DNA from: Candidatus Poribacteria bacterium
GTDB taxonomy: Bacteria > Abyssobacteria > SURF-5
Length of the DNA: 8,797 nt
NCBI GenBank assembly: GCA_016215705.1
Contig: JACRIR010000120.1
Span: 1 to 8,797 of the forward strand
Reading direction: 5' to 3'
Every line of letters starts with the position of its first letter. Position 1 is the first letter of the stretch. Shown here in pieces: positions 2,320 to 7,578 of the stretch. A program made the translations under genes and the position numbers. The notes beneath the pieces are model-generated. The model had not been told where the DNA came from and did no database searches. It saw only the letters and a program-made list of their open reading frames with translations.

Positions 2320-3315
2320 TTACAAATCGAAATGAATTTCTATGGCGCCCGGTGGCTTCGGGTTGCTCAGAATATGGTTTCCGAAGGTTTCTCGCAACTT
2401 GTTCACGTATGAGTCCCACTTCTCGGGAATCTGGAAGAGGGCCCCGATCCTTGTTCTTCCGCATTCTTTCCCGTTCTCTTCGTACCAGCGAATGGTCGCA
2501 TCTATGAATTTGGGAACGTCGTCGTCAGAGAGGAACTCGGCTATCCTGTTCGCAATGAGCGGATGCCTGCCGTGTCTTCCGCCGACTCGTGCGACCCAGC
2601 CCTTGACCTCTTCCTTCCAGCTATCGGTCGGACAGGCGCGGATGCAGTCGCCGCAGTACAGACACTTTTCGGGAAAGTAGATGGGTTCTCCGGTTTCCGG
2701 ATGACTCTCGATGGCGCCCTCTTTGCATGCGCTCGCGCATATGCGACAGCCGATGCAAGTCTCCTTCTCCCACAATGGTTTCACGGCGCCCTGGAATCCC
2801 AGATCCATTTCGTTCGTCCGGGCGCAATCTATCGGGCAACCCGAAAACGATATCTTGAATTTGTGTGTAAGATCGTGGCCGAAGAATTTTTCGTCCACGA
2901 GTTTCGCCATTTTCTGGGTGTCCATCAAGCCATTAGGATTGTACTCGCATCCGGAGCACGCAGTGGGCACTCGTACGCGCGTGCCGCACGAAGCGATTTT
3001 CTGATCCACTTTCGCAAGCTCATCATGGATTGCCTTGAAGTTGCGGTAGTCGACATATGTGAGTTCGATGGACTGCCGGAAGGATAGGTGCACGTACTCG
3101 GCATATTTCTTCGCGACTTCCACGATTTTTTCGAGCTTCGAGATCGGGACCCGGCCGCCCGGACAGCGCAGCCTGACAGTGAACTTATCCTTCTGTTTCT
3201 GCTTGATCAAACCGCCCGATTTCAAAGTAGTGAAATCAATCTGGCCGGTCTTGCCCTCGACCTCAAGATCAACGCCTACTTTGCCGGATGGGTCTTCAAT
3301 AGACTTGTCGACCAT
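2320..3315 (-). CDS. Ferredoxin-type siroheme sulfite reductase, single subunit
   Basis: Encodes 331 residues (numbering below uses this start). Reduces sulfite to sulfide in the cytoplasm. Residues about 30-110 form a nitrite/sulfite reductase ferredoxin-like half domain. Siroheme/[4Fe-4S] motifs follow: TACSGCEYNPNG (118-129) and SGCPIDC (158-164), the latter the usual C-x3-C. A two-cluster ferredoxin insert has CIGCRICASAC (187-197) and CLYCGDCIRAC (218-228). The insert sits inside the second sulfite reductase half, as in AsrC/DsrAB-like enzymes. The usual first motif C-x5-C is replaced by C-x2-C. Start 3315 has GGGGAG 7 bases upstream; a GTG at 3330 would leave that site inside the gene. 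It begins one base after the tusA stop, so the two are translationally coupled. With CysH upstream, an assimilatory role is most likely; related dissimilatory-like proteins of unknown role exist. Confidence 0.85.
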   Translation of the reverse strand: MVDKSIEDPSGKVGVDLEVEGKTGQIDFTTLKSGGLIKQKQKDKFTVRLRCPGGRVPISKLEKIVEVAKKYAEYVHLSFRQSIELTYVDYRNFKAIHDELAKVDQKIASCGTRVRVPTACSGCEYNPNGLMDTQKMAKLVDEKFFGHDLTHKFKISFSGCPIDCARTNEMDLGFQGAVKPLWEKETCIGCRICASACKEGAIESHPETGEPIYFPEKCLYCGDCIRACPTDSWKEEVKGWVARVGGRHGRHPLIANRIAEFLSDDDVPKFIDATIRWYEENGKECGRTRIGALFQIPEKWDSYVNKLRETFGNHILSNPKPPGAIEIHFDL

Positions 3316-3316
3316 C

Positions 3317-3577
3317 TCAATACTCCCCACTCTTTCTTACCAGGAGCCTGAAACTGCCGTCGGCAAGTTTCTCCGCCTTGATGATTCGATGCCCTTCTTC
3401 TTTTATCGAGCGAGGCACATTCCCCATCGGCTCGCCGTCATCTATCCACAGTTCCAGAATCTCGCCCGCTTCCATTTCTTCCAGCTTCAATTTGGTCTTC
3501 ACAAAATTGATCGGACATCTAGTCCCCCTGAGGTCGAGTCTCGCATCGATTTGTTCGACCACAATATTAATGCTCAT
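3317..3577 (-). CDS. tusA: TusA-family sulfurtransferase
   Basis: Encodes 86 residues, the usual size of the family. TusA proteins carry sulfur as a cysteine persulfide and pass it to acceptor proteins. The signature LRGTRCPINFVKTKL puts the active Cys at residue 21, next to Pro22; the family often has CPxP, here CPIN. The C-terminal half (GEPMGNVPRSIKEEGH and onward) matches the beta-alpha-beta-beta fold. Start 3577 is preceded by GGAG 8-9 bases upstream; an open extension to 3649 lacks family similarity. The gene lies one base before the sulfite reductase start, and 238 bases after cysH. Its placement suggests it accepts or delivers sulfur for the reductase, but it could serve tRNA thiolation or molybdopterin synthesis instead. 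Confidence 0.88.
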   Translation of the reverse strand: MSINIVVEQIDARLDLRGTRCPINFVKTKLKLEEMEAGEILELWIDDGEPMGNVPRSIKEEGHRIIKAEKLADGSFRLLVRKSGEY

Positions 3578-3671
3578 GAGTTTTTCTCCTACCCGGCAAC
3601 GGTTTGACCGCAAAACTTCGGAACCTTTCCGCATGGCCTTCAGGAACACGCAGCCATGAAATCCATCGAGA

Positions 3672-3815: not shown

Positions 3816-4547
3816 TTAAGTGAGCGCAGGCTCGGCGTACTTATCTTTCTTAAGCGGCCTGGTATGGATACCGCATTCTCCACCGCATTTGCTTGTTCCG
3901 ACCCAGCGTCCTGCCCTCTCGTTCGGGCCGGCCGCGATGCGTGTGCACGGGGCGCATCCGAGCGAGCGATAGCCTTTTGCGTACAGGGGGTTCACCGGCA
4001 CATGATTCAGGGCGATGTACTGCCAGACCTCGACCTCGTGCCATAGCAGAATCGGGTTGAGCTTGATCAGTCCCTTGTCGCGCTCCTCGATCTCCTGATA
4101 GTCCGTGCGCGTGCGTCCTTCGGTGCACCGCAGGCCCGTCACCCAGCAGGCAACATTCATTTCCTCGATCGCCTGTCTTGTCGGTCGGACCTTCAGGATT
4201 TCGCAGCACAAATCGGGATCAGTCTTGTGAAGCTCATCTGGTATGACATCGTCGCTCTTGAAAACCCGAAGTTCCGGATAACGGCCGACTTCGTGCTTCA
4301 TGAATTCCACAGTTTCCTGTGGCTTGAACCGTGTGGTGACTATGAAGCCACGGATATCCGGCGAGACCCGTTTTGCAAGATGCCAGACAACGACCGAATC
4401 TTTCCCCAAACTGTTGGCCACGGCAAGACGATTCCCGTATTGTTCGTATGCCTCGCGTATCAGGCCGAGCGAGCGGTCCACTTTTTCGACGAAATTGAGT
4501 TTATCCGCCAAACTGCGCATGTCCTGTGAAGCGGTTTTGCGAATCAT
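3816..4547 (-). CDS. cysH: Iron-sulfur adenylylsulfate (APS) reductase, CysH family
   Basis: Encodes 243 residues, typical for the family. It reduces adenylylsulfate to sulfite and AMP in sulfate assimilation. The nucleotide-binding motif SLGKDS is at 46-51. The two cysteine pairs that bind [4Fe-4S] in plant/bacterial APS reductases are present: CC at 114-115 and CAPC at 198-201. This points to APS rather than PAPS as substrate, since PAPS-specific enzymes lack the cluster. The catalytic cysteine is Cys225 in ECGIH (224-228). Start 4547 has AAAGGAGG 7-8 bases upstream. It follows the Rrf2 regulator by 136 bases. That spacer has a 7-base T run after a very weak stem (minus strand, around 4628-4640), so partial termination is possible, and a GAC-N7-GTC element at 4600-4612. 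ATP sulfurylase, the preceding step, is not in the window. Confidence 0.93.
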   Translation of the reverse strand: MIRKTASQDMRSLADKLNFVEKVDRSLGLIREAYEQYGNRLAVANSLGKDSVVVWHLAKRVSPDIRGFIVTTRFKPQETVEFMKHEVGRYPELRVFKSDDVIPDELHKTDPDLCCEILKVRPTRQAIEEMNVACWVTGLRCTEGRTRTDYQEIEERDKGLIKLNPILLWHEVEVWQYIALNHVPVNPLYAKGYRSLGCAPCTRIAAGPNERAGRWVGTSKCGGECGIHTRPLKKDKYAEPALT

Positions 4548-4683: not shown

Positions 4684-5133
4684 TCAAATGTTGTAGTTGA
4701 GGATGAATTCGTTGCGCCTCAGGCACTCTTGCTCGACTAAATCCTCGAATGTCGTCGTATCGTAGACGGTCGAAAGCGCATCACGCACTCGATCCCACAT
4801 GGGAAGAAACGCGCAATCACCGTGAAGCGGACACTGCTCTCCGGAACTCCCGGCGATGCACTGCACCGGAGACAGCGGGCCCTCAATGAACCGGATGATC
4901 TCTCCGACCGTCAACGTAGCTCGCGGGCGCATCAGCACGTAACCACCGGCGCTTCCGCGTCTTGACTCCACAAAGCCTGCCTGCTTCAACTGGTTGAGAA
5001 TGACCTCGAGGAATCTGGTCGGAATCGCCTGCGCCTTCGCGATATCAGCAATTTTCAGCGGCCCTTCACCTTGGTGTTTGGCCAATTCGAACACAGAGCG
5101 AAGCGCATACTGGCATTTTTGGGAAATGGACAT
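4684..5133 (-). CDS. Rrf2-family transcriptional regulator (IscR/CymR-like)
   Basis: Encodes 149 residues. The N-terminus MSISQKCQYALRSVFELA and the winged helix-turn-helix (about 25-75, with RRGSAGGYVL at 58-67) are typical of Rrf2 proteins. Three cysteines, 92, 101 and 107, stand where IscR, NsrR and related regulators bind an iron-sulfur cluster, though the first spacing is longer than in E. coli IscR. Cys7 is an extra thiol. In Firmicutes the relative CymR controls cysteine metabolism. Here the gene leads a cysH - tusA - sulfite reductase set, so it is probably the local regulator of sulfur assimilation, sensing Fe-S, sulfide or redox state (inference). Start 5133 has GGAGG 6 bases upstream. 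A strong promoter and a dyad at the transcription start suggest autoregulation. Confidence 0.9.
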   Translation of the reverse strand: MSISQKCQYALRSVFELAKHQGEGPLKIADIAKAQAIPTRFLEVILNQLKQAGFVESRRGSAGGYVLMRPRATLTVGEIIRFIEGPLSPVQCIAGSSGEQCPLHGDCAFLPMWDRVRDALSTVYDTTTFEDLVEQECLRRNEFILNYNI

Positions 5134-5171: not shown

Positions 5172-5200
5172 AATATAGCACAATGCGGAACTTTTGTCAA
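5172..5200 (-). promoter_or_regulatory. Sigma-70 promoter of the rrf2-cysH block
   Basis: On the minus strand the -35 box is TTGACA (5195-5200, perfect), the spacer is 17 bp, and the -10 box is TATATT (5172-5177, five of six). The start point should be near 5164-5166, leaving a leader of about 30 bases before the rrf2 ATG at 5133. Confidence 0.85.
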
Positions 5201-5253: not shown

Positions 5254-5517
5254 TCAGGAGCAGCCACCGCCAACAGGCGGGAAAACACCCACATGATCGC
5301 CGTCGCAAAGCACGTAGTCATCGGACTGCATCTTCGAGTTGACGAAGGCGGTCTTCACTTCATCACCAGGAATGCCCAGCCGATGGTAGAGGGCGGTCAA
5401 TGTGGCCCCTTTGACCAGCTCGACCTCCATAGGCTCGTGCATTATTGAGCGGCCAATATACTTGGTGAGAGTCGCATAGAGCTTCACATATATCTTGATT
5501 GAGACTTCTTTGGACAT
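5254..5517 (-). CDS. MoaD/ThiS-family sulfur carrier with C-terminal Cys-Ser tail
   Basis: Encodes 87 residues with a beta-grasp ubiquitin-like pattern: VSIKIYVKLYATLTKYIG at the start, a middle helix (about 40-48) and GDHVGVFPPVGGG at the end. Members carry sulfur as a C-terminal Gly-Gly thiocarboxylate for molybdopterin, thiamine, cysteine or other products. Here the glycines (83-85) are followed by Cys86-Ser87, so the tail would have to be removed before E1-type activation. It follows aor by 117 bases, and MoaD-like genes are frequent partners of AOR, supporting a tungstopterin role; it also precedes the sulfur-assimilation block. ATG 5517 is preferred to a TTG at 5526, but neither has a clear ribosome site. 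Confidence 0.85.
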   Translation of the reverse strand: MSKEVSIKIYVKLYATLTKYIGRSIMHEPMEVELVKGATLTALYHRLGIPGDEVKTAFVNSKMQSDDYVLCDGDHVGVFPPVGGGCS

Positions 5518-5548
5518 ACGTTTCAATTGTCCGTTTTCGCCGGGAGGA

Positions 5549-5634: not shown

Positions 5635-7368
5635 TCAGTAGTTATGGACCGAGTCCAGAGCCTCATGCGAAACGTCGAACACCGCGTTGTGCGGTGGCAG
5701 TTTTTCGGTCTCGAAGAACATCGGCAGCCGGTCGTCTTCCGCTGTAAATCCGGCTTTCTTGTTGAATTCTCGCTCGCACTTGAGGACCGATTTTCCGAGC
5801 GCAGCAACATCGTCCGGCCCCAACACGAGTCCATACTGCGCATTTATCATTTCGTAGACAGCCTCAAATGCAGCCGGTATGTCGAGCACTGCGAAGGCGA
5901 CAAACAGGCACAGGCCGGTGCTGTCAATTGCGGCGGTCGCAATCTGCAGGTTTCTGGAAAGCTCGACCTGTCCCTCCGGCTTGAGCGGGTCAACCCTGCC
6001 GCCGACATTGAGCACGTTCGCCGTGATGCTGTAACCCGCCGTGTGGTCGGCGCCCATCGGAGAAGTTGCGAACGTCACGCCGATTCCTTTTATGGAGCGC
6101 GGGTCGTAAGCGGGGAGAGCCTGCCTCTTGACTACCGGGACGCGGCAGACGCCGAATGCCTGGCCGGTGACCGCAGCGCCGCTGCCGAGGACGCGTCCGA
6201 GCGGTGTCGCCTTGCCGACCTCTTCCTTGATGAGCCCGATTGCGCCCGCGCCGTCGCCAAACTGTATGTATCCCGCCTCCATGAGAACGGCTAGCGTGGC
6301 GCCCATCTCGATGGTATCGAGCCCGATGTCGTCGTATAGCCGGTCGAGCTTCGCGATCACATCGAGATCGTTTATGCCGCAGTTGGGACCATTGGCCCAT
6401 ACGGTTTCGTATTCCGGCCCTTTCGTGAGGTACTTCTTGTTCTTGTCCATGTAGACGCGCGAGCATTGGATAACGCAGCCGTGGCTGCACGGGTGCGTCG
6501 CCACACCGCCGCGCTTGAGTATTGTCTCGCGCTGCATCTCGCCGCTCACTTTGTCGGCGTCCTCGAACTGGCCCGTGCTGAAATTGCGGGTCGGGAAACC
6601 CCCTGCCTCATTGATGATGTTTGTGAGAATATTGGTGCCATACGTGGGCAGCCCTTTTCCGGTGACTGCGTGTTCCTTCAGCGCCATCGCGAACTTTTTG
6701 GCGGCTGCTTTGAACGCCCCTTGATCCTTGATTGTGATCGGCGGCGCGCCATTGTCATCGAGAACAATCGCTTTCAAACCCTTTGAGCCCATGACCGCGC
6801 CGAGGCCTCCGCGGCCTGCATGTCGCGTCGGCCGATTCTCGAGGTCCGTCACGGCCACGCTGGCGGCCGACATCAGCCTTTCGCCAGCCGATCCGATTGT
6901 TATATAAGAAGCTTTCTCGCCGTACGTCTTCGTGAGTTTTTCGATCACCTTGTAATTGTTGGCGCCCGTCAGATCTTTTGCCGGTAGAAGCTCCAATTTG
7001 TTCCGGGTGATGACGAGCTTCCACAGGGTCCCCCTCGGGGCCTGGCCCTCGACCACGAGCGCCGCGATCCCGAGCTTCGCGAGTTTCTGAGATGCCGTTC
7101 CGCCCGCGTTGCTCTCCTTGATTCCGCCGGTGAGCGGGCTTTTCGCGCCGACCGAGAGACGGCCGGAGCACGGCGCGATAGTGCCCGAGAGGAGTCCGGG
7201 CGCAATCACGAGCTTGTTCTGAGCGCTCAGTGCATGGCACAGCGGCGGGACTTCGTCGTTCACGATCGCGGATGTGAGACCTCGCCCCGCGAGGCCGGAG
7301 TATTGGGCAGGAATCGGAAGTTCGGAAATCTTCTGGCTGCTCATGTCGACGCGGACTATCTTGTTCAT
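5635..7368 (-). CDS. aor: Aldehyde:ferredoxin oxidoreductase (tungsten AOR family)
   Basis: Encodes 577 residues, slightly shorter than the roughly 600 usual. AOR enzymes oxidise aldehydes to carboxylic acids, or the reverse, using a tungsten-bis-pterin centre, one [4Fe-4S] cluster and ferredoxin, in the cytoplasm of anaerobes. The N-terminal domain (about 1-205) has the family pattern GLAGRGLT, SGRLSVGAKSPLTGG (68-82) and RHAGRGGLGAVMGSKGLKA (182-200). Cluster ligands are C294-x3-C298-x3-C302 and Cys487 in the pterin motif DSTGLC (482-487). GPEYE (317-321) and GADHT (439-443) correspond to the acid and histidine region near tungsten. The exact substrate cannot be read. Start 7368 has AGAGGAGGG 7 bases upstream; an in-frame extension to 7578 translates purine repeats and is rejected. 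A moaD-like gene follows. A candidate promoter is at 7550-7578. Confidence 0.94.
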   Translation of the reverse strand: MNKIVRVDMSSQKISELPIPAQYSGLAGRGLTSAIVNDEVPPLCHALSAQNKLVIAPGLLSGTIAPCSGRLSVGAKSPLTGGIKESNAGGTASQKLAKLGIAALVVEGQAPRGTLWKLVITRNKLELLPAKDLTGANNYKVIEKLTKTYGEKASYITIGSAGERLMSAASVAVTDLENRPTRHAGRGGLGAVMGSKGLKAIVLDDNGAPPITIKDQGAFKAAAKKFAMALKEHAVTGKGLPTYGTNILTNIINEAGGFPTRNFSTGQFEDADKVSGEMQRETILKRGGVATHPCSHGCVIQCSRVYMDKNKKYLTKGPEYETVWANGPNCGINDLDVIAKLDRLYDDIGLDTIEMGATLAVLMEAGYIQFGDGAGAIGLIKEEVGKATPLGRVLGSGAAVTGQAFGVCRVPVVKRQALPAYDPRSIKGIGVTFATSPMGADHTAGYSITANVLNVGGRVDPLKPEGQVELSRNLQIATAAIDSTGLCLFVAFAVLDIPAAFEAVYEMINAQYGLVLGPDDVAALGKSVLKCEREFNKKAGFTAEDDRLPMFFETEKLPPHNAVFDVSHEALDSVHNY

Positions 7369-7389
7369 GGAAGGACCCTCCTCTGAAGT

Positions 7390-7459
7390 AAGGGGAAACG
7401 GGGAAACGGGAAAGGAAAGGCGAAAGGAGCAAGACGAAAGGAACAAGACGAAAGGGAAC
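7390..7459 (+). repeat. Purine-rich minisatellite in the aor leader
   Basis: Imperfect units GGGGAAAC, AAAGGCGAAAGG and CAAGACGAAAGGAA repeat on the plus strand. AAGACGAAAGG occurs twice, at a 15-base interval. The aor messenger would carry the pyrimidine-rich complement just before its ribosome site. Confidence 0.75.
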
Positions 7460-7549
7460 CAAGCTTGCTCATGGTTTTCAGTCTCCGCTTTCTTTTCCCA
7501 AGCAGCCCGTCGCAGCGGGCGACAGACGAACACCTTGGCCACTGGCCCA

Positions 7550-7578
7550 ATTATGCCACAGAGGGAAGCGCAATTCAA
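7550..7578 (-). promoter_or_regulatory. Candidate sigma-70 promoter of aor
   Basis: On the minus strand TTGAAT (7573-7578) is followed by a 17-bp spacer and CATAAT (7550-7555), matching four of six and five of six consensus bases. Transcription would start near 7543, giving a leader of about 175 bases. Confidence 0.5.

Follow-up and report, generated by a model that had tools for sequence, protein, structure and literature searches.

The sulfur carrier gene and its neighbourhood

The window, i.e., the whole stretch of 8,797 nucleotides analysed here, corresponds to contig C33 of a draft genome (G000) with a size of 5.47 Mb and a completeness of 92%. It carries a gene for a small sulfur carrier with an aldehyde:ferredoxin oxidoreductase (AOR) gene upstream and, downstream, genes for an Rrf2 regulator, CysH, TusA and a sulfite-reductase C-like protein (Table 1). 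Family searches confirmed these neighbours and hence the arrangement described in an earlier note on this DNA, which had placed the gene between aor and rrf2-cysH-tusA-sulfite reductase. Neither JAB and E1 genes, nor moaE and moeB, nor any Rfam element was found in the window. Three promoter-like sites were found in the region against 2.4 expected, and the one that separates moaD from rrf2 suggests that rrf2-cysH-tusA-sir may be a transcription unit of its own. The window also holds tandem genes for GspG-like pseudopilins (121-792 and 888-1664), both with N-methylation motifs.

Table 1. Features of the window, with positions counted from its first nucleotide
Feature	Position	Strand	Remarks
MoaD/ThiS-fold sulfur carrier, putative pro-form	5254..5517	minus	87 aa, end PPVGGG-CS
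Cys-Ser tail codons + stop	5254..5262	minus	tail not conserved in relatives (AC; ATEHSVCGII)
Aldehyde:ferredoxin oxidoreductase (AOR)	5635..7578	minus	AFOR_N + AFOR_C; likely ATG start near 7368
Promoter-like site TTGACA-17-TATATT	5172..5200	minus	extended TG, 11/12; consensus match only
Rrf2 regulator	4684..5133	minus	top score to CymR/IscR among named models
CysH, (P)APS reductase	3816..4547	minus	family searches
TusA-family sulfurtransferase	3317..3649	minus	family search
Sulfite reductase subunit C-like protein	2320..3330	minus	NIR_SIR + 4Fe-4S

Read from an ATG at 5517 to a stop codon ending at 5254 (an alternative in-frame TTG lies at 5526), the carrier translates as MSKEVSIK...DGDHVGVFPPVGGGCS*, and its C-terminus, DGDHVGVFPPVGGG-CS, has two residues (Cys-Ser) after the last glycine, as the earlier note had stated. 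The protein matches Pfam ThiS with an E of 4e-9 and 37.2 bits (gathering cut-off 22.5) and Ub-Mut7C with an E of 4e-8, and its profile matches the solved structure of P. furiosus MoaD (1vjk, E 2e-7). It reaches no curated NCBIfam cut-off of the canonical MoaD or ThiS models, scoring, for example, 21.1 bits against the MoaD model TIGR01682 with its curated cut-off of 66.15. A tblastn search against plasmids retrieved distant carriers only, and AlphaFold on the single sequence gave a pLDDT of 50 and no usable model. There is no encoded Gly-Gly terminus; the GG motif is internal, as in pro-carriers, and, judging from the translation, the carrier as encoded is two residues too long to work.

Tails and the putative processing machinery in related genomes

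Three genomes of the phylum were compared, namely that of the window and those of two related Ca. Abyssobacteria (G001 and G002), a group whose member SURF_17 represents a deep-subsurface lineage (PMC6121073). The orthologues conserve the carrier core at 60-64% identity with an invariant PPVGGG, and what follows is GGG-CS in the window's genome, GGG-AC in G001 and GGG-ATEHSVCGII in G002; a check for conservation of the CS tail thus came out negative. Other carriers of these genomes have similarly variable ends: across the three, ThiS ends in GGG-TK, NHG or SQ, the SAMP1-like carrier in GG, GG-NAGIRRS... or GG-R, a second AOR-linked carrier in GG, GG-NTS or GG-KR, and a third carrier in GG, GG-KSPSC... 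or GG, while a fourth has more than 100 residues past GG in G000 and ends in GG-TA in G002. A tail is thus no special feature of the window gene, and its sequence is not conserved. The earlier suggestion that the tail cysteine could itself be functional is not supported, as the cysteine stands at tail positions 1, 2 and 7 in the orthologues, and its presence in 3/3 of them is indistinguishable from chance with six orthologue groups inspected post hoc. An AOR-linked carrier on another contig of the window's genome (G000:C235, L007) runs more than 100 residues beyond GG into CHSEPS/HSERSEES-type repeats, and this extension looks like the result of a lost stop codon.

In the QbsE/QbsD and HcyS/HcyD systems, the carrier is made too long, and a JAMM protease has to take off the surplus C-terminal residues. 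The window carrier resembles these pro-carriers in having residues past GG in a genome that has a JAMM protein with an intact motif; unlike those systems, wherein the protease lies beside the carrier and serves one pathway, here it is encoded on another contig (C84), and several carriers are tailed. This single clear Prok-JAB protein of the genome (C84 11561-11911) scores 80.7 bits, with the runner-up at 19.2 bits falling below the cut-off, and its motif HSHPDYPSRPSGYD aligns with the JAMM structure 2kcq, retaining HSHP..S..D (HxHx10D). Its cluster reads rrf2 / SAMP1-like carrier / MoeB / CysM / JAMM / DsrE / DsrE / MoeB / ThiI-like, and both E1 enzymes of the genome that exceed the ThiF cut-off are MoeB-type and belong to it. 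Thus, the search for a JAMM protease, a HesA/MoeB-like E1 and CysM found all three, clustered on C84. The best NCBIfam matches of the JAMM protein and of its neighbouring carrier are desampylase and SAMP1, respectively, both below the curated cut-offs. The cluster is largely retained in G001 and G002 and belongs to the class combining a carrier, an E1, a JAB protein and a cysteine synthase that was described in 2006 (PMC1779556). In its carrier, MoeB, CysM and JAMM it resembles the CysO-CysM-Mec+ type operon (row 4c, Iyer 2006); unlike the carrier of that operon, the window carrier lies outside the cluster.

Tails and JAMM proteases across bacterial genomes

A first hint came from 24 genomes with a homologue of the carrier, wherein a strong JAMM protein was present in 11/13 with tails versus 3/11 without (p 0.011). 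The test set comprised 97 mostly phylum-diverse bacterial genomes, almost every one from a family of its own, with a completeness of 95% or more except for the window's own (92%); kinship was handled solely by taking one genome for each family. ThiS-family carriers and Prok-JAB proteins were searched in them, and the best 150 carriers listed were read past the last glycine, weaker ones lying outside these 150. Genomes with a match of at least 45 bits were scored as JAMM-positive, leaving aside weak PF14464 matches around 230-260 aa (likely RadC).

Among the matches listed, residues past GG occur on 53/85 carriers in JAMM-positive genomes versus 2/65 in JAMM-negative ones, and at least one tailed carrier is found in 25/28 of the former genomes versus 2/41 of the latter (p 2.4e-13), or 20/23 versus 2/39 when the genomes that suggested the idea are excluded (p 3.9e-11). 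Within the same matches listed, the association is also seen with carriers located over 12 kb away from the JAMM gene (15/21 versus 2/39 genomes, p 1.1e-7), with short tails only (17/26 versus 2/41, p 1e-7) and, more weakly, with both restrictions together (7/19 versus 2/39, p 0.004). The mostly ThiS-like carriers with an xGGG end, taken by themselves, show it as well (8/17 versus 1/25 genomes, p 0.0014). Permutation within strata of carrier number gave p <= 5e-5 at every JAMM threshold used (25, 30, 45 and 60 bits), and genomes with a single carrier among the matches listed have it tailed in 2/3 JAMM-positive versus 0/25 JAMM-negative cases.

The only tailed carriers of JAMM-negative genomes, among the matches listed, are L131 (G014), ending in GGG-Q, and L230 (G041), ending in GG-N; a different Ubl protease may be present in these two genomes. 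Two tailed AOR-type carriers without a JAMM match come from the incomplete MAGs G228 (68% complete) and G032 (86%). Conversely, some carriers in JAMM-positive genomes are tail-less, so a tail is not required. Among the matches listed in the 97-genome set, long C-terminal domain extensions occur on carriers of JAMM-bearing genomes only. From reading the sequences, examples of these extensions can be named MoaE-like (L107, L109, L111 and L154), NIL-like (L123 and L128), rhodanese-like (L170) and ThiF-like (L224). The link between tails and JAMM is a correlation, and a shared sulfur lifestyle could account for part of it.

Proposed maturation in trans and the pathway served

Since the genome has a JAMM protease, MoeB-type E1s and CysM, and since tails track JAMM across bacteria, the earlier reading of the protein as a processed carrier is still the best one; it was too narrow in that tails occur on ThiS, MoaD and CysO-like carriers generally. 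As to the pathway served, an AOR-adjacent MoaD class for the tungsten cofactor has been published (Iyer, Burroughs and Aravind 2006, row 3; PMC1779556), and the window gene is like it in lying beside AOR and in its FPP[VI]xGG end; it is unlike it in the residues past GG and in having the partners elsewhere in the genome, with the E1s on C84 and MoaE on C261. There is one MoaE per family genome, with no carrier on its contig; that of the window's genome (L240 2342-4091) adjoins a MOT1-type molybdate transporter, with no other moa genes seen nearby. The proximity of AOR and moaD is kept in 3/3 family genomes (in G001, further ORFs intervene), 4/6 of the genome's own carriers adjoin AOR homologues, and among the nearest homologues in other families several also have an AOR as neighbour. 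A tree of ~160 carriers puts the window carrier among the FPP[VI]xGG carriers, several of them AOR-linked, with a support of 0.77 that is weak given the short sequences, and apart from the ThiS-like FMGGG carriers that lie beside JAMM in G027, G081, G087, G090 and G092.

The reading that we favour, at a probability of about 0.68, is that the gene encodes a short pro-form of an AOR-type MoaD, which would be trimmed in trans by the JAMM protease and serve the tungsten cofactor of the neighbouring AOR. The protease would cut after the last glycine of PPVGGG, the freed GGG end would be adenylated and thiocarboxylated by one or the other of the two JAMM-adjacent MoeB-type E1s, and the carrier, together with the single MoaE, would deliver sulfur to the pterin dithiolene of the cofactor. 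The tail is then best read as a dispensable extension. A precedent is DRJAMM of Deinococcus radiodurans, which releases MoaD from MoaD-MoaE and on which MPT formation depends (PMC8832034): there the freeing of MoaD from a C-terminal extension by a JAMM protease has been observed, whereas here it is predicted, and there the extension is a MoaE domain, unlike the short drifting tail of the window carrier. If such a protease accepts almost any tail, selection on where the stop codon lies would be relaxed in JAMM-bearing genomes, and tails would drift freely on ThiS, MoaD and CysO-like carriers.

These patterns make it fairly probable that one JAMM protein acts as a common in-trans maturation protease for all the sulfur carriers of a cell—those for thiamine, the molybdenum/tungsten cofactor and cysteine—much as ubiquitin precursors are processed in eukaryotes, thereby allowing their C-termini to drift, to acquire tails and to become fused to other domains. 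JAMM processing of carriers as such already has precedents in QbsE, HcyS and DRJAMM; searches of an open-access library turned up no description of carrier tails depending on JAMM genome-wide, with ThiS and AOR-linked MoaD included and the protease acting in trans, which is not proof of novelty. Were such a dependence true, finding a JAMM gene would predict that one processing protease is needed for making thiamine, the molybdenum/tungsten cofactor and cysteine alike, ThiS and MoaD genes with extra residues would not be annotation errors, and it would be explained where carrier fusions (MoaD-MoaE, carrier-NIL, carrier-rhodanese and carrier-ThiF) can arise. Further, loss of JAMM should give several sulfur-cofactor defects together, in species with tailed carriers only.

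Other accounts of the tail have to be weighed against this. It is unlikely that a different protease or a carboxypeptidase removes it, with the correlation between JAMM and tails reflecting shared ancestry or sulfur metabolism: the two short tails in JAMM-negative genomes and the two from MAGs that are incomplete and lack a JAMM match would fit such an account, as would MoaX of M. tuberculosis, which is cut after Gly82 by a protease not identified in that study (PMC4326299), but the association spans families, holds far from the JAMM gene and within carrier-number strata, and DRJAMM does such trimming in Deinococcus (PMC8832034). We give very little weight to the carrier being mainly a protein modifier, in the manner of sampylation, which the JAMM protease strips from its targets. 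Such a role is in keeping with the sub-threshold desampylase and SAMP1 matches on C84 and with the Ubl conjugates described for Thermus and Thermococcus (PMC3980101, PMC11323500); however, it cannot alone account for the co-occurrence of tails with JAMM, and the AOR linkage points to cofactor synthesis, although both roles could coexist. The window being a contig of a draft MAG, an assembly error or a decaying gene might be invoked, and this is hardly credible: both family relatives carry different residues after GGG, which makes a sequencing slip unlikely, and independent genomes of the family are tailed behind a conserved core.

A separate alternative concerns the pathway, i.e., that the carrier is part of the rrf2-cysH-tusA-sulfite reductase cluster and accepts sulfide in a thiocarboxylate route like that of Wolinella HcyS or of class 4e (Iyer et al. 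2006), the second of the two roles that the earlier note had left side by side. The carrier adjoins cysH-tusA-sir in the window and cysH in G002, i.e., in 2/3 family genomes; the published class 4e unites ThiS/MoaD, JAB, E1, SirA/TusA, PAPS reductase and sulfite reductase (PMC1779556); the cysH-sir and the JAMM clusters each have a CymR-like Rrf2 at their head; and Thermococcus Ubls are partly interchangeable (PMC11323500). Yet class 4e is not matched by a window that has no JAB or E1, and G001 keeps AOR and moaD together with rrf2-cysH-sir on a separate contig devoid of any carrier. Moreover, the promoter-like site intervenes between moaD and rrf2, the carrier groups with the AOR-type rather than with the JAMM-adjacent FMGGG carriers, and the separate SAMP1-like carrier of the MoeB-CysM-JAMM cluster is available for that job. 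The link to assimilation is thus weak and such a role improbable. The AOR-linked grouping, the kept aor neighbour and the location of rrf2-cysH-sir in G001 favour, of the two roles, a putative supply of tungstopterin to the neighbouring AOR over one in sulfur assimilation.

The window Rrf2 (4684-5133) is ~39% identical to that of the C84 cluster (L024 8947-9387), and both are CymR/IscR-like; a common sulfur regulation of the cysH-sir and JAMM clusters by the two regulators is possible.
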